Shown here: piece after piece, positions 1 through 52,178 of the stretch
How the letters are laid out: each line of letters starts with the position of its first letter
Numbering within the stretch: the first letter of the stretch is position 1
Assembly (NCBI GenBank): GCA_001600495.1
Contig: BCKE01000053.1
Location: 163,006-215,183, forward strand
Direction: 5' to 3'
DNA: 52,178 nt
Origin: Pilasporangium apinafurcum
Taxonomy: Eukaryota; Oomycota; Peronosporomycetes; Pythiales; Pythiaceae
Made by a program: the position numbers and the translations under genes
The notes under the pieces: generated by a model
What the model was told of the DNA's origin: nothing
Databases searched by the model: none
Seen by the model: the letters and a program-made list of their open reading frames with translations, nothing else

Positions 1-233
1 TGTATATCATATATCTCTAACGTTGGTAAATGATGGGAACTTTGGCAAAATGACTTTCTAGTTGCTGTAATTGCTGCTATTGCATATACTTGCAAGATTT
101 AACCTCCCAATTTTATCCATTTCTTAGAAAAAATAATGAAAAAATTAGGTAACTAGGAGTAATACTGTATTAATTAGGTAAAGTCCAAGCGGTATCGAAC
201 ATAAATTTAGTCATTAAACTTCCTCTTTTATAG

Positions 234-2272: not shown

Positions 2273-2848
2273 TTGTCTACGTCTTGATTGTGCAGACAGT
2301 TTGAGGAATATAAAATGAATCGATTTGTCAAAGGAACCGACTGCAGTCACTTTAGTAAAATAACTAGTGCACCTTTCACAGTATTTGCCAAGAAAGGTGC
2401 CGTCTGAGACGCAATAAAGAAAATAAACTCTAAAACATGCCACCGTTGATGAACTCCCGTCTCAGAGCGTATTTTTTTAAAGCCCAGATGGGGTCTTTCA
2501 CTTTCACATACCGGTTGGAGCTCTCTAATAAGAAGATTCATTGCTTGTTAGGCGATGATGAATACAGATATGAAGTAGCCCCTTGATTGTAATTAGCCAT
2601 CGAACCGTACTAAGGACTAAGTAGATGAATACAATTATGGTAATGAAAACACTCAAAGATGATGCTGTCACGTCCATTCCACGTCTTTACATGCTTTTTT
2701 ATTTGTGTTTATCTTAAATCTACAAAGTATAGCTATTCTATATATGTATCATGATCGTTCACTCTCCAGACAAATTCTTAGATTCGTCTAACTTGAAAGC
2801 GCTTGAAGGGGAATCAGGACGTAATTGTAGCTCCCCCATCCTATCTAT

Positions 2849-4261: not shown

Positions 4262-4619
4262 GGAGTTATAATTATTAGTAGATTTTGGTTTTCGTGAGCG
4301 TTCTTTGCTGATTGTGGAGTTCGACTCTTCGAGTGTAAGTTTAAGAATGACTTTTCATTGCCTGGGCGATCTTTTCTTCTCAAACAGGTGTGGTACACTA
4401 CTAATTTTCTGAATGAAGCCATTACGCGTCTCGCATGATACTGTCGCAGACGAATGATACTTTGGAACCCATCAACGACAAGGTACGATATGTGACGATT
4501 CCATAGTTTTACACGTTTTGAAGTCGCAAATCGAAGCAGATCAACTTGCTAATTTTTTATCAACACTGTATATTCAATCCATAAACTGCGATTTCTCAAT
4601 CTACTCATGGTGTTCAAAT

Positions 4620-6605: not shown

Positions 6606-7123
6606 ATTGCTTCAACTTCACAAAAACAGGGAATTAGTTTTCTGGTAATCGTTCGCTGTTGTTCGCAACGTTGCAATTTCTTGAATGACCTGGCAAGATT
6701 TGCTTCAAGGTGATATCTGCAACTCGTCGGCAAGTTTTAACAAGGTGCATCCACCAAAATTAACGGCAACTTCCACTGGCAGCCATCATTATCCGTCCGA
6801 TTTTATAAACAAATGACCCTTCAGCAGTCAAGAATTGTCGCGATCGATATGAATTCGAGAGACATTGCCATCACGTCCCACGACGTGTCACTCACGCACG
6901 TAGTCATCTTTGAAACGAGAAAATGAGAAGAAAGCGAATCGCAAATCCTGGAAAAAAGCCTGTCACTCTATGTATTTTAATTCATCACATCTTGGCCACC
7001 TCGGCAGGCTTGTCAGCTTAGTTCAACCCAGACAAATAAAAAAAACAGAATATAAACACGCTGATTCAGTACCTACGGTCAAGTTTCCTTCTCCTTCCCT
7101 TTCCCATTTGATGTTTGCCTTGC

Positions 7124-8389: not shown

Positions 8390-8702
8390 TCTAATGATGT
8401 GATTGATGGAGAGATAGGCAGAAAATGTGCGACTTTTTTCCGACAGACGGATAACTCGACAAGAGATTCGTGGTGGGACCAAACAACTAATATCACAAAA
8501 ACCAGTACATTATGGCTTTGAAAAGATATTAATGTACATTGAAATAAATAATGTATTGGAGTAAATTATAATAACAACGTGACAATTGCGATTGTGCGTG
8601 ATTGGATAAAACTCGAGCAATGTGCTGTACACTTTTTTCCCCAGGCGTAGTAGAGAAAGCAGAGCTGTAGTGTATGAAGTAGACATTGTTTTATAGTGTT
8701 AG

Positions 8703-9887
8703 TTTCTACTGAGCCTCTCAATAGCGAAGCATATTGAATTCAAGTATTTACCACCTCACGTCCATCTATTGAGTGTCGCTTCAACATCATCCGCCAAAAC
8801 AGAAAGAACCGCAGCTTTGAGAAACAGGATAGTCAAAAAATCAAACCAACTACGAGGCGTCCTTGTTTTTGAACGTTGTGATAAAATAACATCAACGAGC
8901 CACGGTATTGAAGAGAACATCACTAAAAAGCGCAGAGCCCGCCCGGATTTTGCGGAACGGAAAGTTCGACAAAAGCAAAGCGTACACACCACTGTGAAGA
9001 CTGGCTGGAGAAAGTTTTGCAAAGACAAAAGAATAGCAAAAAAGATTGATAAGGCTGTATGAGTTTGTTCAAGAATAGCATGTGAGGCATCTATGCTGGC
9101 ATCCGTCCATGTTCTGCGATTATTGGAAGCTGGCGAAGAACTCCCTTCATTGGATAATAACTTTTTCAATCGATGCACATCTGCAATAGCCAACTCGGCC
9201 GGCAGCGGAGAGGTTCATTCTGATTTGAAGACCAGCCTAGACCTTTACAGGACCCAGCACTCTTCAGTTTATGAACCGACAGAGAAGCAATCCTATATGA
9301 GTCAGATGTTGGTTATGATTGCTCAACAAGCAAGGCAGAATTTTCAAGTCAGCAACCGATTGGCGTTCTACTCCCGGTTGTGTAAGTGGATGCGCTTGCA
9401 GATACGTCTTCACAACAGTGACTATTTCGAAAAGCACCAAGACAAGATAATCAAGAGTGCTGTTTCACTGCTGGTCCGTGCGAGCACCCAAACTCAGTAT
9501 AGCTTATTCGGCCAGATGCTCGCGTATGGAAACGCAAGTTTCACAAGCTCAGCTAAAGACGACATTGCTGTTCCCACAACGACCCTACGGAAGAAAATTG
9601 GTTCCAGGTGTCGTGTTGCTGATGTGGACGAGTTCAGGACGAGCAAGCTGTGTTGTGCTTGTCACAAAGAGATAAAAGGGTATGTGCCTGACGAAGAAAT
9701 TGTCAGTGACGGTCTTTATGGTGTGCGACACTGCAAAAATAATGAATGTCATCACACATTGTGGGACCGTGACATCAACGCCGCAATAAATATTTTGAGA
9801 CTATTCATCGACCAAGTGAAGGAAAAGAAGAGACTCGAGGCGTTCGCGAGGAAAGAGAATGAATTGGTACTCGAAATCAAAAACTGA
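8703..9887 (+). pseudogene. Fanzor1-type RNA-guided nuclease remnant, internally deleted
   Basis: One frame runs from 8703 to the TGA at 9885-9887 with a single in-frame stop (TGA 9060-9062). After that stop the frame continues without a break in register into a Fanzor1-like N-terminal helical part (HVLRLLEAGEELPSL, then YMSQMLVMIAQQARQNF). At about residue 130 after the first ATG (9093) it jumps to the C-terminal half: AYGNASF, then VDEFRTSKLCCACH (alternative Glu plus zinc finger), then WDRDINAAINIL, which holds the RuvC-III Asp. The middle, with the WED-like part and the RuvC-I Asp, is missing. The related copy at 47.3-49.2 kb still has that middle. It cannot cut DNA as it stands. An antisense ORF over 8756-9193 is a by-product. 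It sits between two GPX genes. Confidence 0.75.
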
Positions 9888-9992
9888 GGTGATAAACGAC
9901 CTCACTGGTATGATTCCGGAAACGGATGAGTGTAGCCTTTATTCCCCAGGTTTTCTATACCACGGATGGTACAATGATGTGGGGAATAAAGG
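9885..9992 (+). ncRNA. stem-loops at the 3' end of the Fanzor1 remnant (candidate omega RNA/element end)
   Basis: Two perfect inverted repeats are visible. TGAGGT (9885-9890, overlapping the stop codon) pairs with ACCTCA (9899-9904). CCTTTATTCCCCA (9936-9948) pairs over 13 bp with TGGGGAATAAAGG (9980-9992), and inside its loop TACC (9958-9961) can pair with GGTA (9968-9971). In TnpB and Fanzor systems the guide RNA scaffold overlaps the 3' end of the ORF and runs to the element end, so the position fits. Transcription is not shown, and the long stem could instead be a transposon terminus. Confidence 0.4.
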
Positions 9993-10169
9993 TAACAGTG
10001 ACGTTCTGTTTTGCAATTCATAAAGAGTTTCTTCGATGAGCAATTGGAGGTGATCATATGAACGTGCACTGAAATGCCCGTTGGATCGATATCATTTATG
10101 TTCATGGGAATTAACTAAAAGGAAAAAAAAAGAAAATATATACTCATATGATGCACGTCAACATCTTCC

Positions 10170-11540
10170 TTACGCGACAGCCTCTGCCTTTTCTTCCGTG
10201 GGCTTTGGTGCGTCTTCAGCGGTCTCTGCTGACTTGAGTTCTTCTCCATCTTTTGTTTCCGTCACCGTTTCTTCTTTTGCTTTGGTAGTTTCTGACTGAT
10301 TTTCCTCAGTCGATCCAGGTTTCTGTGCCAAGAGGAACTTGATGTCCTCTTCAAACGATAATGGCAGGTCCTTGGGAGCAAATCGCTTGTAAGGTTGACC
10401 ATTCCGATCGATCAAGAACTTGGTAAAGTTCCACTTCACAAAGTTGCCAAACGATCCTGGAAGCTTCGCCTTGAGATACGTGAATACTGGACGAGCATCC
10501 GCGCCATTGACGTCATGCTTCTCGAAGAACGGGTACGTGGCATTGTATTTCTTGACAAACTCCATGATTTCTTCATGGGTGCCTGGTTCTTGACGCGCAA
10601 ACTGATTGCATGGGAACGCAAGCACCTCAAACCCTTCGTCCTTGTATTTTTCATACAACTGTGTCAGTTCTGGGTAATTCGTTGGTGTCAAGCCGCAAAG
10701 ACTCGAAACATTGACGACTAAGACCACTTTGCCCTTATATTTTTCCATCGAGATTTCGTTGCCTTGCATGTCAAAGTCCTTGAGCTCATAGAACGACTCG
10801 ACAGATTCCACATTGACATTGAAGGCTTCACGGTAGGTAGCACCGGCATTGATAATCGAGTTGAGCCACTCGTCCTGCTTCTCCTTCGTGGCCGTGCCAA
10901 TCACCACTGCAGCGGTCTCGTTCGACACTTTAATACCAAACTGAATCGAATCATCAAACTGTACCGATGCATTCGCAAGCGGAAACTTATCAGAAACGTT
11001 GAGCGCGTGGTCTGAGTCAAAGAAGTAAAGTATTTTATCCTGGTCATTTGCCACCACGTATGCTTCTTTCACCGAAGTACCAAAGAGCGACTTGTGTGCT
11101 TTGTTTAAGGTACCGGCCTGGATCGCGCCCTCACGTACCGACCAGACAGAAACGTCGTTCGGGCGGTTCGCGAGTTTGCTGTCGGTGGGTACAAATAACG
11201 CCTTTGGTCCAGCGAATTGCTCGAGTTTCGTAGCGTTTTCGGTGTCTTTTTCGCGGTAGAGCGCTAGGAAACCGCTCAACACAAGACCATCGACGATAGT
11301 GAGTGCCTGCTCCTGTGTGGCATCGGCATTATTGGCAACGAGGTTCTCATGGACTTTGGCGACGAGCGCATCACTCTTGATGCCGACGACGGACTTGACA
11401 AGGTTGGCGGTTTCAGAACCAAACGCTTTGCTCTCGACGAGTAAATTGCTGATGGTTTTCACTTGCTCCTGGATATCTTCAGGAAGCTTCTTGAATTGCT
11501 GAAACCGTGCAAACACGCGACCTTCTAATGCGCTACTCAT
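10170..11540 (-). CDS. glutathione peroxidase-like protein with acidic C-terminal tail
   Basis: A 456-residue protein starting MSSALEGRVFARFQQF. N-terminal module 1-245, including VVGIKSDALV, DEP-like ALTIVDGLVLSGFLALY and a PH-like domain (GAIQAGTLNK). GPX domain about 246-405 with NVSSLCGLT (Cys near 281), FPCNQF and WNFTKF, so the catalytic tetrad is complete. The region where sister proteins have YNCTFPFF reads YNATYPFF, so the candidate resolving Cys is absent; the CNQF Cys or another thiol would be needed. The last 50 residues are Glu/Lys/Thr-rich and look disordered. Nearest relatives are the genes at 12327 and 16506. Confidence 0.9.
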   Translation of the reverse strand: MSSALEGRVFARFQQFKKLPEDIQEQVKTISNLLVESKAFGSETANLVKSVVGIKSDALVAKVHENLVANNADATQEQALTIVDGLVLSGFLALYREKDTENATKLEQFAGPKALFVPTDSKLANRPNDVSVWSVREGAIQAGTLNKAHKSLFGTSVKEAYVVANDQDKILYFFDSDHALNVSDKFPLANASVQFDDSIQFGIKVSNETAAVVIGTATKEKQDEWLNSIINAGATYREAFNVNVESVESFYELKDFDMQGNEISMEKYKGKVVLVVNVSSLCGLTPTNYPELTQLYEKYKDEGFEVLAFPCNQFARQEPGTHEEIMEFVKKYNATYPFFEKHDVNGADARPVFTYLKAKLPGSFGNFVKWNFTKFLIDRNGQPYKRFAPKDLPLSFEEDIKFLLAQKPGSTEENQSETTKAKEETVTETKDGEELKSAETAEDAPKPTEEKAEAVA

Positions 11541-12128
11541 GATGTCTGGAACCTGAATGGATGTTTCGATCGGTAAAAATTGGAGAATGAGATATTCTTG
11601 TGTGCAAAAAACACAAGAGCAGGTAAGAGGATGGGATTGGTTTTGTCAACAGATCAAGTGATGATCGAGAAAAATCGAAGTCACGCGAAATCGGTGGGAG
11701 GAGCTCTTTGGATCGGTAAACAGAACTGCATGGCGTCAACATTGCGCTGCCATCCGTCCAGTGAAAGAAATATTAATTCAGTACTATTTGTAAAGTATAG
11801 CTCAATTATCATCAAACATATTAACCAAAACAACTGAATTAAGATAAATAATGCAAAGAAAGTGCAGTATTCGGATCAAAGGTGAGCTTATACTGTTCTG
11901 CGAGATTTGTCTGTTTCTTTTCTCTGGGACAAGGGCACATCCATCCATCAACGGCTGCATTGCCACGTTGGCTGAGCATATCGCAATTGCCGCCACCATG
12001 GAAGACCAATGATCAACTTAGATACCTCTGACGTTCGACTGACATCGTCGCATGAGGAAACTGACGCATGTCATTCTTCAATACGTGAAGGTAGCACGTT
12101 TATATTGCAGTGAACCTTTCACGCTTTC

Positions 12129-12267
12129 ACACTGTTGAAGATTTCAAGACTGCCATCGGCAGACAGTGCTGTTACGTCGACAGCATAGAAGCATAACTTA
12201 CACTGGGCTGAGATGCCCGAACATTGTTTTTTAGGACCCCCAAGGCATTTGAAATCTTCAACGGTGT
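12129..12267. repeat. short inverted-repeat element
   Basis: ACACTGTTGAAGATTTCAA (12129-12147) pairs with TTGAAATCTTCAACGGTGT (12249-12267) with one mismatch over 19 bp, and the flanks extend the pairing loosely (CTTTC/GAAAG). The 100-bp interior holds further small stems, for example GCTGT/ACAGC (12169-12185) and CTGCC/GGCAG (12150-12162). It lies just downstream of the GPX gene ending at 12327. It may be a small inverted-repeat transposon relic or a structured RNA; no target-site duplication was identified. Confidence 0.45.
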
Positions 12268-12326
12268 AAGAAAGGCAAGTATATTCATGTAGGCCGTCCG
12301 CTAGCAGTAGTATAGCCTTTCTCTCT

Positions 12327-13547
12327 TTAAAGGGATGATGGTTTCTGCTGAATAAGGATTTTGATGTCTTCTTCAAATGAGAACGGCAAATCTTTCGGAG
12401 CGTACCGCTTGTAAGGTTGACCATTCCGATCGATCAAGAACTTGGTAAAGTTCCACTTCACAAAGTTGCCAAACGATCCTGGAAGCTTCGCCTTCAGATA
12501 CGTGAATACTGGACGAGCATCCGCGCCATTGACGTCATGCTTCTCGAAGAATGGAAACGTGCATTTGTACTGCTTCACAAACTCCATGATTTCTTCATGT
12601 GTGCCAGGCTCTTGGTTATTGAATTGGTTGCATGGGAATGCCAGGATCTGCAGTCCTTGGTCACGGTATTTCTCATCGAGTTGCGTCAGTTCTGGATAAT
12701 TTGTCGGGGTCAATCCGCACAAGCTCGAGACGTTCACGACCAAAATCACTTTACCCTTGTACTTTTCCATCGATACTTCGTTACCTTGCATATCGTAGTC
12801 CTTTAGCTCGTAAAACGACTTGATCTTTTCGATATCGAGATTAAATGCCTCGCGATAAGTTGCACCAGCATTAATAATTGAATTGAGCCATTCGTTTTGC
12901 TTGTCCTTGGACGATGCTCCGACTACAACCGCTTTTAGAGCAGATGCAACCTTGATACCGTGCTGAATCGAGTCATCAAATTCCACGGACGCATTTGACA
13001 GTTTCACTTCCTCCGACATATTAAGGGCATAATCAGAATCGAAGAAATAAAGCGTCTTGAGCTTATCGTTTGCGATCACATATGAATCATGGGTCGATGT
13101 ACCAAATAATGACTTGGATACCTTCTTTAAGACGCCTGCCTGAATTGCTCCATCCATAACCGACCAGACTGAAACATCTCCAGTACGGCCAGCGAGCTTG
13201 CTATCTGTAGGAACAAATAACGCTTTTGGAGTGGCAAAGTTTCCCAATTTCATCGCATTCTCAACGGCACTTTCATGGTATGGTGCCAAGAAACCACTCA
13301 ACACCAATCCATCGGCGAGTGTCTCGGCGCTTGCGTTGGGGTTTCTTGCGTGTTGGCGGATGGAGTCGAGTAGTTTTTCGCTCTGGATACCGACGACTGA
13401 CTTGAGCAATGACACTGATTCCGGTCCAAACGCCTTGCTTGCCACTAGTGAATCAGTGAGTGCCGCAACCTGCGCTTGTACATCAGAAGGAAGCTTTTGA
13501 TATTGGCGGAGACGATCGAATACGCGGCCTTGGAGTGGAGAACTCAT
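12327..13547 (-). CDS. glutathione peroxidase-like protein with DEP/PH-like N-terminus
   Basis: A 406-residue protein. Start taken at MSSPLQGRVFDRL (ATG 13545-13547); an ATG 16 codons upstream is in frame. N-terminal module 1-240 (VVGIQSEKLL, a DGLVLSGFLAPY stretch, PH-like GAIQAGVLKK), then GPX with NVSSLCGLT (Cys near 276), FPCNQF, WNFTKF and a second Cys in YKCTFPFF. It ends soon after the fold (ILIQQKPSSL), without the tails of its relatives. The stretch 12361-12821 is identical to 17253-17713 in the opposite-strand paralogue, so the C-terminal domain was recently copied from one gene to the other. Confidence 0.9.
   Translation of the reverse strand: MSSPLQGRVFDRLRQYQKLPSDVQAQVAALTDSLVASKAFGPESVSLLKSVVGIQSEKLLDSIRQHARNPNASAETLADGLVLSGFLAPYHESAVENAMKLGNFATPKALFVPTDSKLAGRTGDVSVWSVMDGAIQAGVLKKVSKSLFGTSTHDSYVIANDKLKTLYFFDSDYALNMSEEVKLSNASVEFDDSIQHGIKVASALKAVVVGASSKDKQNEWLNSIINAGATYREAFNLDIEKIKSFYELKDYDMQGNEVSMEKYKGKVILVVNVSSLCGLTPTNYPELTQLDEKYRDQGLQILAFPCNQFNNQEPGTHEEIMEFVKQYKCTFPFFEKHDVNGADARPVFTYLKAKLPGSFGNFVKWNFTKFLIDRNGQPYKRYAPKDLPFSFEEDIKILIQQKPSSL
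12361..12821. repeat. 461-bp gene-conversion tract, copy A (inverted to copy B)
   Basis: Reading the reverse complement of this interval against 17253-17713 I find no difference. Divergence begins abruptly on both sides: at one edge ATCAAAATCCTT in this copy against ATCAAGAAACTC in the other, at the other edge AAGATCAAGTCG against TCTGTGAAGTCG. Both edges lie inside coding sequence, and third codon positions are identical too, which points to recent conversion, not selection on the protein. Confidence 0.9.
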
Positions 13548-14625
13548 GGGATGGCGATCAAGCGAATGGGCGCATTTGTAAAAGATATCGCTCAAAATTA
13601 TTAGTACTATATAAAATCAGTACATTTTAATTGAGACTCCTAATTGCAAAAAAAACTCCGTATTTAGAGTTTTATATACTGAAGTAGTAACTTAAGTAAT
13701 GATATTTGATAATATAGACAAATGTACACGATTGGTTGATAATACTGAAATATATAAAATAACGTGACATAATTGGTAATAAAAAATATTTTACTGATAT
13801 ACCGATCCGAATTCTATTTGGCCAATCCGATATGAAGGAAGGACATGGTGTACTCGCTCATGATAGAAATCGTGTGTAATTGTGAGATTAGTACCGCCAA
13901 CAGATATACACAGTGTCGTGTGTGTCTGTATGTCCGCTTTGAACAAAAAAGACCGCACTTGAGTGTGATGAGAGTCTAAATAAACAACAAAAAAAGAAGC
14001 TTGCTGCTCAAGGCTCCATTTGCATTTGGGGTTTGCGTCAAAAATCCACTTACAGCCGTAATCAAGTCTAGATCCTTCACAAATACTCATGAAATGTGCA
14101 CTGGAAATGGGTTGGGAAGATGCCCAGATTCAAAGACACCATCAACAGTAGTCACCTACGGTATCTGCTTTCCCTCATGCTATAAATCGTATTGTCGAAG
14201 GATATCTGATTCCATAAACTGGCCATTCCTCCCCTCCCCTAACCTAATATTATCCAATAATAAATTATTTTAATGTTATTTTTCACCAATCAAAAGCTAC
14301 AATACCTAAAGCCCATCTGGCAAACGTGTTACTTGAGGAAGTGCACGGTTGAATTTCCGCGAAAGAGAACCGACATCACCACCCGTTCCATCTCTCACTC
14401 TCTTGCGCGAGCAGATCATTCTTATCTGCCACTAGATCAGCGTTACGAACAAATTGGACCTTCCACACAGCCATTTCAGGTCGCGACATAGGCATTTTCG
14501 TATAGTCAGTCCTCCCTCTTTCGCCCATGCATGTGACAGTTGGCATAAGAGAAGGAAGAGTGAATAGGCGACCATCGCGGCTACTATTAATAAGTCGCTC
14601 ATCTGTGGCGACTCTTTGGGTTTGG
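13548..14625. other. AT-rich intergenic stretch
   Basis: About 1.1 kb between the minus-strand GPX gene and the plus-strand FN3/FYVE-like gene. 13590-13800 and 14230-14280 are strongly AT-rich. No coding sequence, tRNA or clear repeat was recognised. It probably holds the divergent promoters of both genes. Confidence 0.5.
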
Positions 14626-16048
14626 ATGGCTACGCTGTTGAGCACGACGACGAGTGTCGATGCACTCGCTGTACCCTCATTAGGTGAGTGTATGCATGCT
14701 CATTGATGATTATCACACGCTGAGAGTGTAATACCCACACTAATGAAACGTCCCTTTTCATCTTTCTTTAATGATTATAGGTGGCTTGACAAAAACAGCG
14801 TGGACGTGGTTGACATGGTCGTCCTGGGAAGATGAAGACAAGTCTTTGAATGCCAAGGCCGACTTTGTGCCGATGCCGCTTGCTTTAGAAGGGGAAGAAT
14901 TCGTGCGAACGTGTGCGTAGCTGCTCGCTTCAGAGGTGGTGTTCAGAGATGCCAGTTATTAACCAAGTTATTTTTTTATCCCTTGTCGATTAGATCCATC
15001 ATATCCACATTCTCCAGTGCTTGTCGCAGCGGCAACGTGTCAGAACGTCGTGCTTCGCTGGAAAAGTTTTGAAGACAATGCCTGGCCAATTGATCAATAC
15101 TTAATCCAGCGTTTTCCAGATTACAATCATCACAAACAATGGTCAACTATCTTGGAGTCAAACACGTCCGACGTCGTCGACTCAAGCGTGACCATGGGGA
15201 ACGCTTACAGCTACCGCATTCAGGCGTTCAGTCACAACGTCTCGAGTGCCTACGCGTACTATTCCGTGAATCTCAACCACCCATTTTGTGAAGGCTCGTT
15301 TTTCCCAGCCATTCCAGATCTCAGCCATGATGCGATCCGCACGTTGTGCCTCATTTGCTCCTGCTTCCTCACAGTCTACGGACTTATGCGTGCAAACGTC
15401 ACGCGCGTCCAAGGCACTCGTTCACGCAGCCACCGGCTGAAAAAGATCCGGAAATCAGCTTCTGAAGGTGCAGAAGTGTCGTTCTCCTCGAAACGAACGT
15501 CACGCTCGTCGTCAGCTGCGTCGGGAAGTTCACCGCCGCCATCTATCGTGGCTGATCAACCGTATCAGGACAGTAGCGTGTTTGATTCCAGCAGTACTAA
15601 TCGTGAAAGCATTCTGTCACGTGATGGCTACCAACCTCGCCGATCCAGTTACGCTGGGACGGCACCATCGACAGCTCAGGAGAAAGCAGTGAGCTGCCAG
15701 AACTGCCAAAAGAAGTTCGGGATCTTCCGTCGACGGCATATATGCGATGTCTGCCACGCTGTCACATTGTGTCGAAAATGTGGTTTTCAGACTCCTGTGG
15801 ATGGAGAAGGCGGACTGGCTGATGCAACTTCTCCAACTGCACCATCTCCTGCTGTAGCAATGGAGAGTCGAATGTCAACCGTAGTATCCACGCCACACAC
15901 CAGTCACAGCAGGCGCCGCAGTCACAGTTCGGGCACGATGCATCGCAAGGTGAAGATCCGTACGATTTGCCGTGGCTGCTGTGACGAAGTGTATCGATAT
16001 TCTACGGCGCCGGGCGTGCGGCCGTCGTACATCCCGTCGCATAATTAG
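14626..16048 (+). CDS. fibronectin III / FYVE-like zinc-finger membrane protein, three exons
   Basis: Exons 14626-14683, 14781-14912 and 14994-16048 join in frame to 414 residues; introns are 97 and 81 bp with GT-AG ends. Residues about 60-165 resemble a fibronectin type III domain (VLVAAATCQNVVLRWKSF ... YSYRIQAF). A hydrophobic segment follows (IRTLCLICSCFLTVYGLM), then a Ser/Arg-rich linker and a FYVE-like zinc cluster: CQNCQKKFG, RRRHICDVCHAVTLCRKC, and a final IRTICRGCC after a long Ser-rich insert. The eight-Cys order fits FYVE-type fingers, which bind PI3P, but the basic core (RRRHICDVC) is only similar to the consensus R(R/K)HHCRxCG. Likely a membrane-anchored endosomal protein (inference). 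Confidence 0.8.
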
Positions 16049-16505
16049 CTCACACTTTCTGTGTGTATGTAACGATATGGAAAAAAAAAAATGAAGAAAA
16101 ACAAAAATGAAAGCGTGTACTAACAGCATGAATGGCGATGACAACTAGCACTGGCGTGAAGAAAAAAAGGAAAACGAATCAATTTCTCGGCGGCACATCG
16201 GCATGGCGACGAGTTAAAGGGAGTTTTTGTATGAAAAAAGCTATCGTGGGTGATCTCGTAGAGAAGAGATGACTGGGTGAATGGATAAATAAAAAAAATC
16301 AAACTATTTTCCACACAGATCGTAGCCACATTTAGGTTACAACAACTTTCGTCTACACCCCATATTTATACTAGAGTTTGTATGCTTAACATTCACACAC
16401 ATTAACATCCGTTTGTAAGTTACTTCAACTTGTGTCTCTTCGAAAGATCGTTATTCTTCAAGCGGACGACCCAAACACAAAGCAGAAGAAAAGCAAATTT
16501 GTTCC
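16049..16505. other. intergenic, nothing recognised
   Basis: A 457-bp gap between two plus-strand genes with short A-runs after the upstream stop. The last 100 bases presumably carry the promoter and leader of the GPX gene that starts at 16506. No coding sequence or repeat seen. Confidence 0.4.
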
Positions 16506-17909
16506 ATGACTGCGTGCGCAGGACGTGTGTTTGACCGCTGGAGGCAATTCGAGACACTTCCAGAGGATGTGAAGACTACTGTGACGAGTATAAAAGAATA
16601 TCTGGCGACGAAAGACGTTCAAACCGAAGTGTTCACAACAAAACGAGGTACGAACAAAGTGAAACCAATCACGACTGCGCCGGGCAGTGCAGTGCTAGCT
16701 GCTATTAAGAAGAAATTGGAGGAAAGTGGTACGAGTGACACGTCGCCAGAGAATGTGAAGAAAGTGGCCGATGGGCTGGTGCTGAGTGGCGTGTTGACAC
16801 CACAAAACGACGTTACGGTGCTAGAGGGGTTTGCATTTGAGACAACCACTTTCATCGCTGTGGACCCGCTGCTGACAGGAGATGCGACAGCAAAATCGGT
16901 ATGGAGTATGCGTGAAGGAGCGATCCAGGCGGGGATGCTGAAGCGTAAACGTTCGGGTTTCTTCGCGAAATTGACGGCCAAACCCCAGGTGTATGTAGTG
17001 TGCCATGAACCTACCAAATCTGTATACATATATGAGTCAGAGGTCAGCCGATTCCCACTTAATACGGTGGATGTGTCATCCGGGACAGTGGAGTTTGATG
17101 GATCCGTGCAACATGGAATTAAGCTCTCGAATTCAAGTGTGACAGAAGTTTTTACTGCTGTGTCAAAGGAAAAACAGGAAGAGTGGCTCAATTCGTTCAT
17201 TAATACCGGTGCCAAATACCGCGAGGCGTTCAACTTGGCCTCAGAGTCTGTGAAGTCGTTTTACGAGCTAAAGGACTACGATATGCAAGGTAACGAAGTA
17301 TCGATGGAAAAGTACAAGGGTAAAGTGATTTTGGTCGTGAACGTCTCGAGCTTGTGCGGATTGACCCCGACAAATTATCCAGAACTGACGCAACTCGATG
17401 AGAAATACCGTGACCAAGGACTGCAGATCCTGGCATTCCCATGCAACCAATTCAATAACCAAGAGCCTGGCACACATGAAGAAATCATGGAGTTTGTGAA
17501 GCAGTACAAATGCACGTTTCCATTCTTCGAGAAGCATGACGTCAATGGCGCGGATGCTCGTCCAGTATTCACGTATCTGAAGGCGAAGCTTCCAGGATCG
17601 TTTGGCAACTTTGTGAAGTGGAACTTTACCAAGTTCTTGATCGATCGGAATGGTCAACCTTACAAGCGGTACGCTCCGAAAGATTTGCCGTTCTCATTTG
17701 AAGAAGACATCAAGAAACTCATTGAGCAACCAGTGACATCCAGTGAGCCCACAATAGCGGCAGCCACAGAAGCTCCGGTTTCTGCGGAGAAAGTACATGT
17801 AGATGTGGCAGCTACCGAGCAAGTTGACTCAAAAGCTGAAGAAAAAGAAGCTGTTGCTGTATCTGAAAATGAAACCACAGCGGCTTCACAGGATAATGCT
17901 GGCGACTGA
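16506..17909 (+). CDS. glutathione peroxidase-like protein with acidic Ala-rich tail
   Basis: A 467-residue protein starting MTACAGRVFDRW, and the only plus-strand member of the cluster. The N-terminal module (1-240) is the most divergent among the active copies, yet the DEP-like (VADGLVLSGVLTP) and PH-like (GAIQAGMLKRKRSGFF) parts are clear. GPX domain with NVSSLCGLT (Cys near 282), FPCNQF, WNFTKF and YKCTFPFF. The tail after residue 405 is rich in Ala, Glu and Thr. The catalytic exon segment 17253-17713 is identical to that of 12327-13547 while the N-terminal halves differ strongly, so the two halves of the gene have different histories. Confidence 0.9.
   Translation: MTACAGRVFDRWRQFETLPEDVKTTVTSIKEYLATKDVQTEVFTTKRGTNKVKPITTAPGSAVLAAIKKKLEESGTSDTSPENVKKVADGLVLSGVLTPQNDVTVLEGFAFETTTFIAVDPLLTGDATAKSVWSMREGAIQAGMLKRKRSGFFAKLTAKPQVYVVCHEPTKSVYIYESEVSRFPLNTVDVSSGTVEFDGSVQHGIKLSNSSVTEVFTAVSKEKQEEWLNSFINTGAKYREAFNLASESVKSFYELKDYDMQGNEVSMEKYKGKVILVVNVSSLCGLTPTNYPELTQLDEKYRDQGLQILAFPCNQFNNQEPGTHEEIMEFVKQYKCTFPFFEKHDVNGADARPVFTYLKAKLPGSFGNFVKWNFTKFLIDRNGQPYKRYAPKDLPFSFEEDIKKLIEQPVTSSEPTIAAATEAPVSAEKVHVDVAATEQVDSKAEEKEAVAVSENETTAASQDNAGD
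17253..17713. repeat. 461-bp gene-conversion tract, copy B
   Basis: Base-for-base identical to the reverse complement of 12361-12821. It covers the whole catalytic GPX core, from the Phe-Tyr-Glu-Leu strand to the Phe-Glu-Glu-Asp-Ile helix. The two copies are 4.4 kb apart in opposite orientation. Confidence 0.9.
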
Positions 17910-21472: not shown

Positions 21473-22792
21473 ATGCCGTCGCATGTTGCAGCACTCTGGG
21501 CTGACAACGCCAATCTCGTGCGATGTCGTGTCGTTCCACATGCACAGTTCTCTCAGCCCGAATTTCATGTGCAGCTAACCAACGCCATTCAGAGCATGCC
21601 GTCAATGTATGATACTCCATTCGAGAGTGCAGTCGGCAAAGTCTCCATGCGTCCAAACAACGCTAAATTATATAATGTCCACGCATGGATAGACGACACA
21701 GCCGTCTGGTTTGGTGATATGCAGAAAAATAACGAAGACTGGTCGCATTGTCCTCGGACATTTCTCCGTCGGCAAGAAGAAAAACTTCGTTCGGAATACA
21801 AAATCCAACCTACAGTCGGCTTTGAACTTGAATTCCAACTACTTGAGCGGAATGTACATGGAGATTACGTACCGGTAGATAGCACATTGTATTGTGAAGC
21901 AAGAGCATTCCACAGCACCAGCAAGGCGTGGCAAGTGGTGAAAAAGATTGTTGAATGTTTGCAGAAAGATCTTGGGATCAACGTAAACCAATATCATCCC
22001 GAATCAGCGAGTGGGCAGTTTGAGATTAGCATTGGCCCGTTTTGTACGAATGGCGATCACGTGACCAGCCTAGTTGAGGCGATCGATCTCCTTGTCCTGA
22101 CGAGACAGTGTATCTATGGAATTGCCGCCAATTTTGGTCTTCACGCCACATTTATCCCTAAATTCCGTGCTAATGAAGCAGGTAATGCCGCTCATATACA
22201 TATTGGTTTATTGGATCTCACTGATCCAAAGAAAAGTAATTTGTTTACCAGCCAATTGACCAAAGCTGAAGCGTTTGTCGCGGGGGTATTGCAAGAGTTA
22301 CCAGCAATGGTGCTATTGCTCGCACCGTCAATCAATTCCTATGACCGGCTTCGACCAAAATGTTGGGCAGGTGCTTTCCATTGTTATGGTTACGAGAACC
22401 GCGAAGCACCGATCCGACTCATTAGCTCGAAGACTAACGACTTAACTCAAGTCGAACGTTTTGAAGTCAAGACACTCGACGCAACCGCTAATCCTTATGC
22501 AGCACTAGCAGCACTACTAGCTGCTGGAATGCAAGGACTAAAACATGACAGCAAACTTCCGCCTGCATGTAATCAGGATCCAATGACGCTGCCTGAAGAT
22601 CAAACGCCGAATTTGCTACCTCAATCGCTTAGTGAAGCAATTGAAGCGTTTCGTGGTCGAGCGACAGTGTGGGAAGAAATCCTGTCGAATTCCTACTTCA
22701 AGATACTAGTTGAATTACGAGAAGAAGAAAATCGATATTATGGTGGATTAGTGCAAGCGGAAGCCATTCATCAGTTGATTATGAGATACTAA
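21473..22792 (+). CDS. type I glutamine-synthetase-like protein (copy 1)
   Basis: A 439-residue, single-exon protein. An N-terminal beta-grasp-like part (ALWADNANLVRCRVVP) is followed by the catalytic barrel: GFELEFQLL (metal-binding ExE), SASGQFEISIGP, AAHIHIGL, NSYDRLRPKCWAG, ENREAPIRL and DATANPYAALAALLAAG. These are hallmarks of the GS-I/FluG/lengsin/gamma-glutamyl-polyamine synthetase superfamily. Length is near the family norm of about 450. The substrate need not be ammonia; similar eukaryotic proteins may use polyamines or have lost activity. It forms a tandem pair with 23532-25004. Confidence 0.9.
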   Translation: MPSHVAALWADNANLVRCRVVPHAQFSQPEFHVQLTNAIQSMPSMYDTPFESAVGKVSMRPNNAKLYNVHAWIDDTAVWFGDMQKNNEDWSHCPRTFLRRQEEKLRSEYKIQPTVGFELEFQLLERNVHGDYVPVDSTLYCEARAFHSTSKAWQVVKKIVECLQKDLGINVNQYHPESASGQFEISIGPFCTNGDHVTSLVEAIDLLVLTRQCIYGIAANFGLHATFIPKFRANEAGNAAHIHIGLLDLTDPKKSNLFTSQLTKAEAFVAGVLQELPAMVLLLAPSINSYDRLRPKCWAGAFHCYGYENREAPIRLISSKTNDLTQVERFEVKTLDATANPYAALAALLAAGMQGLKHDSKLPPACNQDPMTLPEDQTPNLLPQSLSEAIEAFRGRATVWEEILSNSYFKILVELREEENRYYGGLVQAEAIHQLIMRY

Positions 22793-23531
22793 AAAGTGGA
22801 GAAAAAGCAGACTTGATAAGAAAAAGAAACTCAGATTGGAAAGAGTATTTGGTGTTATAGCAAGTCGTGGATGAGCATGATTGGGTGGTGTAAACAAATT
22901 CGTATGGTTTTAATTGAATATGACTTTGACGACATCTTGCGTGGCATCCAGTCTAGTCAAGCATATGTAACCTAGGCTTGGCTACACTACATTATAGATG
23001 AACCCTAATGATTACCATCAACGCAAAACCACAATTTTGCGAGCCATTAATTATTATAGTTTGAGGAGCTTTAGGCTAAATGTGAACAGTTGCGAATCCG
23101 AAGTGATGCGAAGATCTTCATGAGTTTTCCTTCGCATCTTTCTGATTGTTCAGAGGAGCCAAGCAGTTTGAACCTATCATCAATGTCACTTCCAGCCAAT
23201 TGACATCGACACCGATGTCGTTTCCAAAAACAGATGTTACTGAACTGCTGTTAGTCCACTTGTGACCCCCAACCTGTGTAGCCATCGCTAACCTATATCC
23301 AATATCGTAATCATGCTACGGATATTTAACTTGCAATGACCAAGTATCACAGATATGCATGCAAAAGGCGCAATCCCAAACGGCTTTCTATCATATCGTA
23401 AATGTCCAAAGGTATTATCTCCCGCCAGTCTTCTCAAATACAAAATCCAAGAACAATGGCTTTCCTCACAATCATTTCGAAATTTGCTACCAAGTAACGA
23501 AGTTCAATCAACTCGCGAACAACCACCAACC
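22793..23531. other. spacer between tandem GS-like genes
   Basis: About 740 bp. The part from 23355 is in frame with the downstream gene and could encode an N-terminal extension of it (59 codons from ATG 23355), possibly a targeting peptide. The rest shows nothing recognisable. Confidence 0.4.
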
Positions 23532-25004
23532 ATGAGGCCATCTCCGTCACCCGCCAATAATAACAAATTTAACTACACCGTCATCGAAGAACAAGAACAT
23601 CAAGCAAACTCTGCATCAAAAGCAGTTACCTCTCCTCGTGCGCATATAATGGTGATGTGGGTTGACAACGCCAGTCTTGTACGCTGTCGCGTCGTACCAC
23701 GCCGTCGATTCCAAGAGCATAACTTCCATGTGCCCATTGTACCCGCTGTGCAGAGTTTGCCGATGATGTATGACGTGGCAGTAGAGAAACCAGTGGGGGA
23801 AGTATGGATGGTTCCAACAAAAGACACGGAACTTTTCGATATTAGTACCTGGATGGACGACACGAGCGTCTGGTTTGCTGATATGGCCAAGCCGTCAACA
23901 CAAGGCAAAAATAACCCAGGCCAAGACCATGATTGGGCATATTGTCCCCGTTCTTTTCTACGTCGACAAGAGCAATTGCTACTAGAGAAACACCGAATTC
24001 GCGCGACATTGGGCTTTGAGCTTGAATTTCAACTGCTTATTCCACATGGTCATGCTCCTAACGGCAAATTGCCATCGCCAGTGGACACCACATTATACTG
24101 TGAAGCACGTGCGTTCCATGGAAACAACGGTTTTAAATCCCCCTGGAAAGTCGTCAAGCGGATTGTCGAGTGTTTGGAGGCTGAACTCCATATCCCCGTT
24201 AACCAGTACCACCCAGAAGCTGCAAGCGGCCAATTCGAGATCAGCATCGGTCCGTTCGGTATTGACAATGAAATGACAGTCTGTGAGGGCGTAGATCGGC
24301 TTGTTCTAGCCAGACAATGTGTCTATGGAATCGCGGCGAAGTATGGTTTCCAAGCGACATTCCTCCCAAAATTGAGCCAATACGAAGCGGGGAGCGCCGC
24401 TCATACACACCTCGGTCTGGTGGAATTGAACAGCGAAAAACCGTCCAACTTGTTTGCAAGCAAGACAAAGAAAGCAGAGGCGTTTGTCGCAGGAATACTC
24501 GAGGAACTACCACCAATGGCAATGCTCTTGGCACCATCGGTCAATTCTTATGACCGACTTCAGCCGAGTTGTTGGGCTGGTGCTTTTCAATGCTATGGTT
24601 ACGAAAATAAAGAAGCGCCGATTCGGCTGATTTGTGCGGATGAGGAGAACGACTTTGCTACTGTCCAACGGCTAGAGGTCAAAACAGTAGACGCGACGGC
24701 GAATCCTTACGTGGCAGTAGGTGCACTCCTTGCTGCTGGTATGCTAGGATTGGACCGACAAAGTGAATTACCTCCAGCATGTAATGACAATCCTGCTTCA
24801 TTGTCTGAAGAAAAGCGACCTCCACGTCTACCTAGTTCACTTACTGAAGCCATTCAAGCGCTTCGTGAGCACTCGAGTACGTGGGAAGCGATTCTGTCGC
24901 CTTCATACTTTGACTTGCTGGTCAGGCTTCGCGAACAAGAGAACAAATATTACGGCGAGCTGAATGTAGACGAGAGATTGCGTCAGTTACTAAAGCGGTT
25001 TTGA
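23532..25004 (+). CDS. type I glutamine-synthetase-like protein (copy 2)
   Basis: 490 residues from the ATG at 23532 (MRPSPSPANNN), or 549 if the upstream in-frame ATG at 23355 is used. A 50-residue Asn/Ser-rich leader precedes the beta-grasp part (VMWVDNASLVRCRVVP). Catalytic motifs match copy 1: GFELEFQLL, EAASGQFEISIGP, AAHTHLGL, NSYDRLQPSCWAG, ENKEAPIRL, DATANPYVAVGALLAAG. One difference is HTH in place of HIH, which keeps both His. Protein similarity to copy 1 is high along the whole length, so a tandem duplication followed by divergence is likely. Confidence 0.9.
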   Translation: MRPSPSPANNNKFNYTVIEEQEHQANSASKAVTSPRAHIMVMWVDNASLVRCRVVPRRRFQEHNFHVPIVPAVQSLPMMYDVAVEKPVGEVWMVPTKDTELFDISTWMDDTSVWFADMAKPSTQGKNNPGQDHDWAYCPRSFLRRQEQLLLEKHRIRATLGFELEFQLLIPHGHAPNGKLPSPVDTTLYCEARAFHGNNGFKSPWKVVKRIVECLEAELHIPVNQYHPEAASGQFEISIGPFGIDNEMTVCEGVDRLVLARQCVYGIAAKYGFQATFLPKLSQYEAGSAAHTHLGLVELNSEKPSNLFASKTKKAEAFVAGILEELPPMAMLLAPSVNSYDRLQPSCWAGAFQCYGYENKEAPIRLICADEENDFATVQRLEVKTVDATANPYVAVGALLAAGMLGLDRQSELPPACNDNPASLSEEKRPPRLPSSLTEAIQALREHSSTWEAILSPSYFDLLVRLREQENKYYGELNVDERLRQLLKRF

Positions 25005-28010: not shown

Positions 28011-28184
28011 CCTCAAGGGCCATATGAGATACAAAAGTATCTCAGAGCGGACCTCCTGTTGTTTCATCTGGGTTCGACTCAACTAGCAAAAGCAGACTAG
28101 ACAACTGCTGAGTAGTCATCTCGTCTTATACCTAGACTCGCTGAATCCAGGAGAGTAGGTGCTTATTCTTGAGAAAAATATTTC
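28011..28184 (+). repeat. left terminal inverted repeat
   Basis: Matches the reverse complement of 28603-28781 over about 174 bp with scattered substitutions and a few small indels. It starts near cctcaagggcc and ends at aatatttc. TGAGATAC (28025-28032) and GTATCTCA (28037-28044) form a hairpin with an AAAA loop. Its inner end overlaps the final codons of the nuclease fragment. Confidence 0.85.
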
Positions 28185-28345
28185 TAGTAGCATTGCCATC
28201 TCTATCAAGGACAAGCTTACAGTGACGACACTCAGATTTTTTGGTACTTCATTGCGTGGTTGATTCTCCCACATTGAGAACAAGTCTTTGTTGTATAGTG
28301 TTCCTGACCGTCAACTTTGCGTAGTCGTAAGCAATGCATTAAGCT
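28150..28345 (-). pseudogene. Fanzor2/TnpB-like C-terminal fragment (RuvC-II, zinc ribbon, RuvC-III)
   Basis: On the minus strand the translation reads VDGQEHYTTKTCSQCGRIN, then after a one-base shift at an A6 run (28237-28242) SECRHCKLVLDRDGNATRN. This is the TnpB-type order: catalytic Glu just before the first CxxC, the second CxxC, then the RuvC-III Asp in DRDGNATRNIF. It matches ERYTSISCSRCG and FKCKKC in the gene at 51239-52178. The RuvC-I part and N-terminus are absent, so it is inactive. It ends inside the left inverted repeat. Confidence 0.75.
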
Positions 28346-28602
28346 CTATCTCTCATTTCTCCTACCTCTAGGATATACTTTGGCCTGTTTTTGAAGTGAA
28401 CAGATCCACATCGATAGAAGCAGAAGCTTGCTTCCAATTCTCTGCAATAAGCTCTTTTCAACGCCATTCTTCTTTTCAAGAACGGATGCGATGCGATGAC
28501 AGTGCATACCCAAGGAGATCCAGCTGACGACTAAGTCAAAGCGATTGTCTGGAAGGTGTGGCGCGGTAGTATCGATGCAAAAGAAAGACAAACATCATAG
28601 CT

Positions 28603-28781
28603 GAAATATCTTTCTCAAGAATGAGTACCTACTCTCCTGGATTCAGCGAGTCTAGGTATAAGAGGAGATAACTACTCCGCAGTTGTCTAGTATTAGCTTT
28701 TGCTAGTTGAGTCGAACCCAGATGAAAAAATAGGAGGTTCTCTCTGAGATACTTTTGTATCTCATATGATCCCTGAAGCGA
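28603..28781 (-). repeat. right terminal inverted repeat
   Basis: Inverted partner of 28011-28184. The hairpin GAGATAC/GTATCTC and the B-box-like sequence (as GAGTCGAACC at 28709-28718) are both conserved, while neighbouring positions have diverged. Confidence 0.85.
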
Positions 28782-47324: not shown

Positions 47325-49151
47325 ACACTCTGCCACAATCCCGTCATCCAGCAAGAAGTAAATGAGCGAGTACTGACGGTGAAGTAAGTCCAGATCGAAG
47401 CCTGGCACGTCGCGAACCTATATGTGTTTCGCTGTTTCCAGGACAACATCCCGTTGCCGGAACTCATCATGACGCTTTTTACAGATGCTATACTGGGGTA
47501 CTTTTACAACCAAATAGCAAACCAGCAAAAGCGTGCAGCAATAAAGATAAAGATCTTAACGACACACTTCTGATTTACTGAGCGCAGCGACAGTTATTTG
47601 CGGACGAGTACTCGGCTCCACAAATGTCCAATGTCTCTCACACTCTCATTGAATCGGCAAGCACTATGTTTGTGAACGTGACAAACCACATTGTACTAAA
47701 CTTTGACCGACGACTCCATTATTATATCAAGTTTCGCTATGGAAAGAATGGCGCAGAAGTGGAAGCATTAATATCAAGCTGTTTTCGCAAAGATGGAGAG
47801 TTTCCGAGTGAAGAGACTGAGCTTCGCGGGTGGCTGGAAGTGTATCTACCATCTCAATTGACGATAAAAGCGAATCTTTCTCACTTTCTGAGCAAGACGT
47901 ACGAAATGCTGCAGTACAGGGAGTTTGGAACGTTGGAGGAACCAAAGTTGGCGGGGTGCCATGTATTCTCGTTACTGTCAATGTCGACATCCTTCGTCCC
48001 AGCGCACATCAAGATCAGTATGAGTGTCCTACATGAGACGAGTGTGCGCATCCCGCGAACACGAAAGATCAATGTCTTCTCTGTTACTTCAAGCGACAAG
48101 AACAAGTCTCATCCAATAAACAAAGAGTTTCGAGTCATGTGGGACAAGCTTTGGAACAAGGGATTTCACATTCGCAAATTCGCGTACCAGATCACGACCA
48201 ATGGCTACAGCGCGTCTTTACTCCAGCAGCATTCCGCGAAAGAGAAAGACATGACGGTATCACTTGACAATTACGTTCCCGATACTGTCGTTGGGATCGA
48301 CTCTGGCATGCGATTGCTTTGCATTGTCATTCATGTGCGAGAAGTTGATGTGAAGAAGGAGAAAGCCAAGTGCAAAAAAAGGGAAAGCAAGCAAAATAAA
48401 ATGAACGAGTCGAAGAAGAACAGCGAAAGGAGCGGAAGAAGAAAGGAATAAGGGACGCAAGCAAGCCAGCAACCAGTGGTATGATATTCAACAGATATCT
48501 ACGCGGGAGTGCAGGCATCTCACTGGGATGAACAAGTATACGTTCTGTCACGAGAGTTTGAAACAGAAGGAACACGAGTACGCTAGGATCGTTTGGGAGA
48601 CGGCTTTGTTCAAGATGGCGTCGTACGACCAGTATACAACAAGCGTCAAGTATGTCCGGAGATATCTCGATTTCATGGTGAACTTTTGCGCATTGCATCC
48701 ATTTCGTGAATGGCGTTTCCTTCAGTTCAGATTTAGTCCGAAGACGTTGGCACATTTGACAAAGCAGTTGGTACCCACATCGAGTCCTCAGATTTCCATT
48801 GCCGTCGGTGACTGAAGTCGACAGAACTTCATCAAGTGTCATGCGGACGGACCCGTGAAGCGCTTCACACATGATCTGGCAAGGCACGCGACCGTGCTGT
48901 AGGTCGCTGAATACCGCACGAGTCGGCGGTGCTCTGAGTGATATCAGCAGCTTGAAAATATGGCATTCCTGATAAGGAAAGCTGATGGAAGTGCAGACGT
49001 CAAGCTCTCCCATCAGGTTCTCCGCTGCAACAACAGCGAGTGCAGAATCACATGGGAGCGAGATGTCAATGCATCGAAAAACATTCTTACACTCGCCATG
49101 TGTCTCCTACGTAGACTTTCAAGACCACTCGAGTTACGACGAGAAGTATAG
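47325..49151 (+). pseudogene. full-length Fanzor1-type nuclease gene, broken by stops and frameshifts
   Basis: The N-terminal part is read in one frame (IEAWHVANLYVFRCFQDNIP, resembling the copy at 9.1 kb) with stops at 47385 and 47571. The frame then shifts: 47591-48451 encodes the middle (MFVNVTNHIVLNFDRRLHYY) up to RuvC-I, VVGIDSGMRLLCIVIHV, with the first catalytic Asp. After another shift near 48450 the rest reads YARIVWETALFKMASYDQY, then RuvC-II/III: AEYRTSRRC, LRCNNSEC and WERDVNASKNIL, with stops at 48813, 48900 and 48939. The total of about 600 codons fits Fanzor1 length. The first zinc-finger CxxC is damaged. It is a dead but complete element gene. A minus-strand frame over 47168-47470 is a shadow. 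Confidence 0.75.
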
Positions 49152-49181
49152 AGTGTAGTAAGAGTATCCATAGACAGCGGG

Positions 49182-49216
49182 AGAGATTAAATCTCTTAAA
49201 CGTGTCCACACGGTTT
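49182..49216 (+). ncRNA. tandem stem-loops after the Fanzor1 pseudogene
   Basis: AGAGAT-TAA-ATCTCT (49182-49196) and, directly after it, TAAACGTGT-CC-ACACGGTTTA (about 49196-49216, one bulge) can fold 30 bases past the stop. The position equals that of the hairpins behind the copy at 9.9 kb. This may be a decayed omega-RNA scaffold or an element end; expression is unknown. Confidence 0.35.
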
Positions 49217-49811
49217 AGTCCGTATTCTGGCAACTGTCAGAACTGTGGACCATCTAAAAGGACCAATCACTTGGATGCAAATAGGAGTTATGAAACTCTA
49301 GTGCAGAACTTTCTCAACATATATTATCCGCAAAAGTCCCATGTAACGACTATGGTGGAATAAAAAATAGCTTTTTGTCTACCGCATTTCTATCACATGT
49401 GAGCAGTGGTTATGACTGCCAGCGCTCATGAAAGTGAGTGATCACAATATTCGTCGAAGACTCGCAGATCTTTTAAGTGTAGTGGGTTGCTTTCATCTTT
49501 TCACTTGCGTTTTGACATTCATACATTATTCACCCTACGGTCAGTAAGCTGGACAAAGAGAGAGAGAAAAAACATCAAACCAAGCGTGGTGACGAATTCT
49601 TGTGTTGGCTTCCCTACCAGCCTGTTGGTCCATGCAGTGGAGGTACATTTTACAAGCTCAGTCGATCCGTCCCACCTGTCTGGAGTGAATGTAAGTTGAA
49701 TGCACAACACGATTAATGTGGATACATTCATCTGATTTACAACTGATATGTATCATATTGATCTTTCAATGCTGTCCATACGAAACAGTCCATTCTTGTT
49801 TTGATCACCAA
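49217..49811. other. intergenic
   Basis: About 600 bp before the zinc-finger repeat gene. No coding sequence recognised. It should include the right boundary of the Fanzor1 element and the promoter of the downstream gene. Confidence 0.35.
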
Positions 49812-51009: not shown

Positions 51010-51129
51010 CACAGATGCACTCCATTTACTATCTTTAAATATATAATTATCCACGTTTGAGTGGACATGTGCCTTGGATCGATCATGATAAGGATGTGTT
51101 GCATTCCTGCGCCTAAGGAAATCCTCATA

Positions 51130-51238
51130 GATGCCAAAGATACCAAAGTACCGGACACCTACTCCCTCTTGGGCCTATAACACCAGTAAANCTGGCAGGA
51201 CTCCTCGAAGAAGGCGACTTCGATATTTTTTTGNTTTA
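51130..51238 (-). ncRNA. 3' region of the Fanzor2-like gene with small stems (candidate omega RNA)
   Basis: Directly behind the stop of the gene at 51239, TCGAAG (51205-51210) pairs with CTTCGA (51218-51223) and CCAG (51183-51186) with CTGG (51192-51195). Two ambiguous bases (51191, 51234) fall in this stretch. By analogy with TnpB/Fanzor2 loci the guide scaffold should lie here. The evidence is position plus weak structure only. Confidence 0.3.
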
Positions 51239-52178
51239 TCAGGCGAAGTGTTCGNGCAAGATAGATCCGCCGATATTCTTGTGGAAGATGTTCTTTGCGG
51301 CACTTACATCACGATCGTGATCAAACGTACACTTCTTGCATTTGAATGTCTCGCTTTCACTGAGTCTCTTGTTGATCTTCCCGCAGCGTGAGCACGAGAT
51401 GGACGTGTATCTCTCACAGACTTCTTCCAAGTGTCCGCCTGTGCGCTCCATCTTCTGTGTTAGGAGCATTCTAAAGTGATAATGTGACTGAGCCAACATC
51501 ATCCGCGTCGTCGGACTTGAAATCTTGCGCTTGCGTCCACGTACTGTCAGCATCTCCTCTGGCTCCCATAAGTGTCTTGGTGTTGCATCTTCAACTTCCT
51601 CAAGTACATATCTTGCAGCCATTTTTTTTGTCTGAAACGTTGGTAACAGTACCTCATGATAATTGTCGCTCAGCCACCGCGAGAGCTTCTGGTGCATATC
51701 ATTGACCATCCGTGACACCTTTCTCAACAGAAACCGAATCTTGCGTCGCAGACGATAACGCTGACGTTTGCTCGTGCGTATTCTTTGTCGTGCTTGCTTC
51801 TTCGCAGTCCGTGTCCGTGTCTTACAAAAGCTCTTGCAATTACAGACGGACTTCTTGCATGTAGTTGACTCAATCGCGTTCTCCATTAACGACAACTCTC
51901 TCTTATACGTGTTAATGAGTTGAAAGCGCCGCACGAGCTCTTTGTTCGGATCACCCACACATAACNCCCTGCCGTCGGGGTCNTATAGCGTGATGAACTT
52001 GCGTACTCCTGGATCAAGCGCGCATGATCGGTTTGAGGTTGATATTGGGAATGCCTTGTNTCGAGGGATGCATAAATGATATTCACCTTCACGAGAGCGC
52101 CGCACCCGAACTGAATAGTTGAGTTCGGGAAGCTTCTCGCGCACCTCGATTCCTTCGTCTTTCTTGAAACCAAAAAAA
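51239..52178 (-). CDS. Fanzor2/TnpB-like RNA-guided nuclease, N-terminus beyond the window
   Basis: The frame is open from the right edge to TGA at 51239-51241, at least 312 residues of an expected 400 or more. All RuvC parts are present: ALDPGVRKFITL (Asp I), VCERYTSISCSRCGKIN (Glu II, directly before the first CxxC), FKCKKCTF (second CxxC) and DHDRDVSAAKNIF (Asp III). Upstream, VRVRRSREGEYHLCIP resembles the end of the TnpB WED region. A long Arg/Lys-rich helix between RuvC-I and II (RTSKRQRYRLRRKIRF) could contact RNA. Four N bases give unknown residues but no stop. TnpB and Fanzor2 proteins cut DNA guided by an omega RNA from the 3' end of their own locus. This is the only potentially intact copy here. 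Confidence 0.82.
   Translation of the reverse strand, partial: FFGFKKDEGIEVREKLPELNYSVRVRRSREGEYHLCIPRXKAFPISTSNRSCALDPGVRKFITLXDPDGRXLCVGDPNKELVRRFQLINTYKRELSLMENAIESTTCKKSVCNCKSFCKTRTRTAKKQARQRIRTSKRQRYRLRRKIRFLLRKVSRMVNDMHQKLSRWLSDNYHEVLLPTFQTKKMAARYVLEEVEDATPRHLWEPEEMLTVRGRKRKISSPTTRMMLAQSHYHFRMLLTQKMERTGGHLEEVCERYTSISCSRCGKINKRLSESETFKCKKCTFDHDRDVSAAKNIFHKNIGGSILXEHFA

Follow-up and report, generated by a model that had tools for sequence, protein, structure and literature searches.

At the right-hand end of the window (the whole 52,178-nt stretch analysed here) lies an open minus-strand frame of 312 codons plus a stop, which we identified as the C-terminal part of a Fanzor2 protein (Table 1). 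Searching its translation against Pfam yielded PF07282 (OrfB_Zn_ribbon/TNB) at 66.7 bits (E 2.1e-18, cut-off 26.3) and OrfB_IS605 at 32.5 bits (cut-off 30.5), and since both Pfam cut-offs were passed the resemblance is beyond chance. A longer copy of the gene from the same genome (P0002) additionally carries HTH_OrfB_IS605 in its N-terminal half (39 bits, cut-off 21) and matches NCBIfam guided_TnpB (109.6 bits, cut-off 100). The best PDB match of the window protein was mimivirus L79 (PDB name: TnpB-like protein L79), a characterised Fanzor2. At window 51641-51643 (-), which we take to be the canonical RuvC-II glutamate position, the window copy has a proline (LLPTF), and the glutamate is found instead in CERYTS, opposite which the glutamate of L79 (NVNEYLTT) was aligned. 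The protein thus combines a RuvC-I DPG motif, a signature typical of Fanzors (PMC10711439), with a rearranged RuvC-II glutamate and an OrfB_Zn_ribbon/TNB domain with an RD motif. A preliminary description made from the sequence alone had proposed a Fanzor2-like nuclease gene with the RuvC triad and both CxxC pairs in order in one open frame, and had suggested TnpB/Fanzor profiles as a check; profiles and motif coordinates both bear this out for the visible half. It had also allowed that the ambiguous bases might resolve into stops. The last kilobase of the window contains six single Ns and four codons of the frame contain an N; family copy L013, 97.5% identical to the window copy in DNA, reads H, Y, V and R at these codons, 0 of 4 being stops.

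Table 1. Features of the focal transposon and of related sequences in the window, with the evidence for each.
Feature	Window position	Strand	Evidence
Fanzor2 protein, C-terminal 312 codons and stop	51239..52177	-	Frame, Pfam, PDB match, motif coordinates
RuvC-I Asp, DPG motif (ALDPG)	52013..52015	-	Motif coordinates
Rearranged (alternative) RuvC-II Glu (CERYTS)	51413..51415	-	Motif coordinates and mimivirus L79 alignment
TNB zinc ribbon (CxxC...CxxC) and RuvC-III DRD motif	51308..51394	-	PF07282 match
Cys codons, two CxxC pairs	51392-51394, 51383-51385, 51338-51340, 51329-51331	-	
DRD motif	around 51308	-	
Non-coding right end of transposon (129 bp), putative reRNA/omegaRNA scaffold to element end	51110..51238	-	Inter-copy homology stops
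Right copy of shared CG dinucleotide (proposed crossover core)	51110..51111	-	Empty sites
Right flank, predicted guide segment of reRNA (length guessed)	51085..51109	-	Analogy with TnpB/Fanzor architecture
Left end of second focal-element copy, which continues beyond the window start	1..192	-	C53:163006-163197, 96%; junction A-CCG
Broken relic, sister IS607-TnpA-associated Fanzor2 family	28129..28321	-	tblastn, E 7e-19
Weaker second relic piece, sister Fanzor2 family	28584..28697	+	tblastn, E 3.5e-4

The gene was described as exceeding the window edge, and its N-terminus is indeed missing, but beyond the edge lies no sequence: from the first base after the window, contig C53 (in an assembly of 36.47 Mb and 136 contigs) is all N for at least 7.7 kb. 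An apparent open frame of 8140 aa was rejected as being this N run. The run fits a collapsed repeat, and since both window ends adjoin the same repeat, both look like assembly breaks at it. As to the three further Fanzor loci reported for the window, tblastn supported one clear broken relic, and the remainder were weaker, namely the second piece in Table 1 and matches at 9612-9797 (E 0.004), 48987-49088 (E 0.07) and 6018-6107 (E 0.17). Rfam at gathering thresholds gave no match across the whole window, and a tRNA search of the window found none. Other genes in the window are one for a WRKY19 zinc finger protein, two for glutamine synthetases (21473-25004) and, distributed over both strands, six glutathione peroxidase-like frames (542-17909; 422-633 aa). 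A repeat family that is abundant, with about 37 places or more among the matches listed, is represented at 49099-49220.

We then delimited the element from its copies. The window gene forms the right half of a transposon of about 2.5-2.65 kb, as judged from copy lengths between end coordinates. Using a Fanzor query (P0001) and grouping the resulting rows, we found at least 34 Fanzor-bearing places including the window, at 89% identity or more; a left-end query gave 42 rows, corresponding to at least 40 distinct places, and a right-end query returned the best 40 of 61 candidates. Each of these counts is a minimum, and gaps interrupt many of the copies. On the right, homology stops at query base 1067-1074, mostly 1069 (window 51110), in 29 of 29 other loci, which amount to 26 distinct copies (L028, L029 and L034 repeat L023, L022 and L021), and the 20 bases beyond differ in every copy listed. 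On the left, the copies are bounded by CCG. The 3-5 bases inside this CCG vary among copies (CTTG, TACG, TATTG, CAA, CCGG; e.g., L047, L049, L051), and there is also variation at a few positions some 14-20 nt away from the right end. Two loci first taken for a different element sharing the same ends (L063, L064) were rejected as such, both being gap-interrupted copies of the focal element.

The sole long frame in L013 is the Fanzor itself (648 codons without a stop); no second long frame was found there, the other frames on either strand reaching at most 106 aa, so that the TnpA of its own that an IS607-type element would carry was not detected in this copy. The frame runs uninterrupted across the HTH and RuvC parts in two longer copies, L011 and L013. 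No in-frame ATG precedes the SWF motif in L013, and one is present further upstream in L011; by eye, the protein in L014 starts MKRRGRPP, a stretch missing from L013 and L030. A length of 648 aa or more exceeds that of compact Fanzor2 and is Fanzor1-like. That the protein is a Fanzor1, or else that the sequence is bacterial contamination, is nevertheless very improbable: a PDB profile search with E up to 10 gave mimivirus L79, TnpB and Cas12 chains and no chain named Fanzor (Fanzor1 chains may be absent from that PDB set), the long copy has HTH_OrfB_IS605, and the window holds eukaryote-type genes. Elicitins mark oomycetes, and the elicitin family PF00964 has 50 matches in this genome, against 0 in 14 controls, all prokaryotes. 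The host of the focal element is probably an oomycete.

The family is young. In the right part, 27 copies differ from their consensus by 0.82% on average and the window copy by 0.95%. Over the whole frame (156 distinct changes) dN/dS was 0.83 (p 0.29), and over the last 930 bases 0.72 (p 0.16); a cruder estimate for the last 930 bases, with no transition weighting and with shared changes counted repeatedly, was 0.58. Variable sites numbered 56, 42 and 55 at the three codon positions. The copies hence evolve near neutrality, so that the open frame is a mark of recent origin and does not prove activity. We found nothing in support of a domesticated host gene, a reading that deserves hardly any credence, since the sequence recurs almost unchanged at 34 or more places, bounded by defined transposon ends, and synonymous changes are not in significant excess.

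It is a serious possibility, although one we would not favour, that the window copy is a dead relic that makes nothing, with its 5' half deleted or broken, which would be compatible with the explanation favoured below. A dN/dS near 1 and the divergence of the window copy, slightly above the mean, point this way, as does the frame being unbroken in only two (L011 and L013, both with some ambiguous codons, and the latter lacking an ATG ahead of the SWF motif) of the eight gap-free copies (L011, L013, L014, L015, L021, L025, L027, L035). Against it stand the youth of the family and the visible half of the window copy, which has neither stop nor frameshift; moreover, several of the frameshifts in other copies fall within runs of A, where the assembly may have erred. 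L021, L022, L023, L030 and L031 all lack one base from the same A-run near residue 520, a deletion that may be real or a consensus error.

To characterize the target site, we parsed the left junctions by seeking a CCG near the end; of 32 left ends tried, two remained unparsed (on C73 and on C7, the latter reading G-CCG by eye). A purine precedes the left CCG in 30 of 30 parsed junctions (23 A, 7 G), with a T ahead of it in 17, and the CCG is exact in 27, the exceptions being CTG, CTG and TCG. Of 33 right-end rows, one was spurious and was dropped; the remaining 32 read GCG (29 cases) or GTG (3). Duplications of TA or longer targets were rejected, none being seen at the compared junctions. We then searched for paralogous empty sites of three insertions and found them for two (C6 and C77); the joined-flank search for the C12 insertion found none. 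With the C6 flanks joined by CCG, a paralog on C34 matches through the junction at 66% identity and reads ACCGGTAACCTT, with a single CCG; the alignment scores 194 with CCG and 185 without, and a gap of 9 bases is required immediately beyond the base to the left of the CCG. On C77, the insertion is situated at a repeat edge: of the best 40 rows among 138 candidates, 38 are elsewhere. Among the 12 C77 paralogs (all rows starting at or before query base 160), NCG is present in 11 and CCG in 4 with no gap needed at the CCG, the left-flank match spanning just 1 to 32 bases. The repeat concerned belongs to the family also found at window 49099-49220. The target of the element is (T)R-CCG, which holds a single CCG when empty, and CG alone is common to both ends.

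A CG dinucleotide that matches between the two ends and the target, with no clear terminal inverted repeat (TIR) or longer target-site duplication (TSD), is the arrangement of IS607-type elements, although a 2-bp CG duplication made by another transposase could look identical in sequence. One such alternative is a Fanzor2*, i.e., a Fanzor2 that has been taken up by a DDE (cut-and-paste) transposon of eukaryotes, with CG as the 2-bp TSD generated on insertion. Elements of this kind exist (PMC10711439), the CG at both ends with one CG in the empty site also fits such a duplication, and the ends show weak inverted similarity by eye (CGC-TTGG versus CGCCTAAGG). Those described in Chloropicon and molluscs are, like the focal element, eukaryotic Fanzor2 without an IS607 TnpA (PMC10711439), but they have TIRs and TSDs, neither of which is clear in the focal copies compared, where CG alone is shared and the sequence immediately within the left CCG is variable. 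Together with the IS607 TnpA that accompanies related Fanzor2s in the same genome, this makes capture by a DDE transposon unlikely.

These related Fanzor2s form a divergent sister family, 38% identical to the long focal copy, with an IS607-type TnpA upstream (PF00239 at three places) that by eye comprises MerR-like and serine recombinase parts. Its ends are TTAACC...GGTTAA, with variants; the TnpA family seen thus has TTAA ends, unlike the CCG...GCG of the focal element. A TnpA query gave at least 150 matches (the best 150 of 243 candidates), many of them broken, and none of these 150 fell within a focal copy. Of 20 fetched TnpA loci (L067-L086), nine match TnpA residues 37-132 only, the pattern that a spreading non-autonomous derivative would leave; for L081 an alignment begins at residue 7, and two pairs of loci look duplicated. 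The sister Fanzor2 frame carries an LWLP...SWF motif resembling the focal N-terminus, and shares about 248 nt, read in a different frame, with the TnpA catalytic domain (L040 reverse 1643-1890, with equivalents in L041 and L042). Within this overlap, the least variable codon position is the one at which changes are non-synonymous in each of the two frames, but the effect is weak (19 copies; p between 0.05 and 0.57 according to the cut).

Taken jointly, these observations are best explained by a young Fanzor2-only transposon moved in trans by an IS607-type TnpA, with a CCG TAM and a right-flank guide, and we consider this explanation likely. An IS607-type serine recombinase would act in trans and cross over at CG, modelled on IS607 elements, which cross at GG. 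By analogy with known systems, the Fanzor2 would bind an RNA made from the right end of the element, taking its guide from the right flank and recognising CCG as its TAM, and would cut the empty allele left by excision, after which repair from the sister copy would restore the element. The CCG is predicted as TAM because a CG core is preceded by C. In the fold of the 132 nt between the stop codon and the element end of L013, CGCCU pairs with the terminal AGGCG, so that the CG would also belong to the scaffold; against shuffled sequences this fold was not significant (z -1.16; 23 of 200 as good), and the right ends vary too little among copies for covariation. The AlphaFold model of the protein was poor (mean pLDDT 50). 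For the window copy, one of dozens of near-identical copies, the scheme would hold, and the protein may be active, only if the unseen N-terminal half is intact.

Parts of this scheme have close parallels. IS607-type Fanzor2 elements (e.g., ISvMimi, ACa; PMC3627910) share with the focal element the DPG motif, the rearranged glutamate, HTH_OrfB_IS605, TNB and the lack of TIRs or longer TSDs, whereas the focal element differs in having no TnpA, a protein of at least 648 aa and dozens of young copies. Crossover in IS607 elements takes place at matching dinucleotides, and GGG is depleted by wild-type ISXfa1 (PMC10711439); in ISXfa1 the dinucleotide stands at both ends and belongs partly to the TAM and to the RNA scaffold, being GG as against the CG proposed here, and this bacterial element encodes its own TnpA, which the focal element does not. 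The measured TAM of NlovFz2 is 5'-CCG (PMC10432273), the trinucleotide preceding the focal element. Oomycete Fanzor2 are on record in Phytophthora sojae, capsici and ramorum, with one family each (Bao and Jurka 2013, PMC3627910, Table 1). A literature search on Fanzor and IS607 in oomycetes, by titles and abstract starts and mostly within papers outside subscription, returned no report of such an expansion. With less assurance, at a little short of even, we propose that this oomycete nucleus has seen recent IS607-type transposition at scale, a TnpA-less Fanzor2 having moved in trans into about 40 R-CCG places alongside a sister IS607 family for which at least 150 TnpA matches were counted and whose tnpA and fanzor2 may overlap by about 248 nt.

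Judged from its sequence, the focal protein falls within an already known class of RNA-guided enzymes; what is new is the readable DNA insertion site. A single window gene would by itself matter little, but young copies with readable empty sites allow the TAM, guide and crossover dinucleotide of a eukaryotic Fanzor2 to be predicted from one genome, and these predictions are directly testable. Were serine-recombinase transposition in trans true, this would be a eukaryotic system in which to test what Fanzor is for, namely to keep the donor site filled.

Further relatives were sought with additional queries. Against viral contigs, one of two queries returned one ordinary TnpB and the other none, and one alignment query found no relative in prokaryotic genome contigs. 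Within the genome, contig C135 carries a 3'-truncated relative that is closer, at 45% identity, and resembles the focal element in its left end. The same contig holds (L005, C135:16683-18401) a member of another Fanzor/TnpB family, with IDPG, a glutamate at the canonical RuvC-II position (FLEKF) and an open frame of 572 aa.
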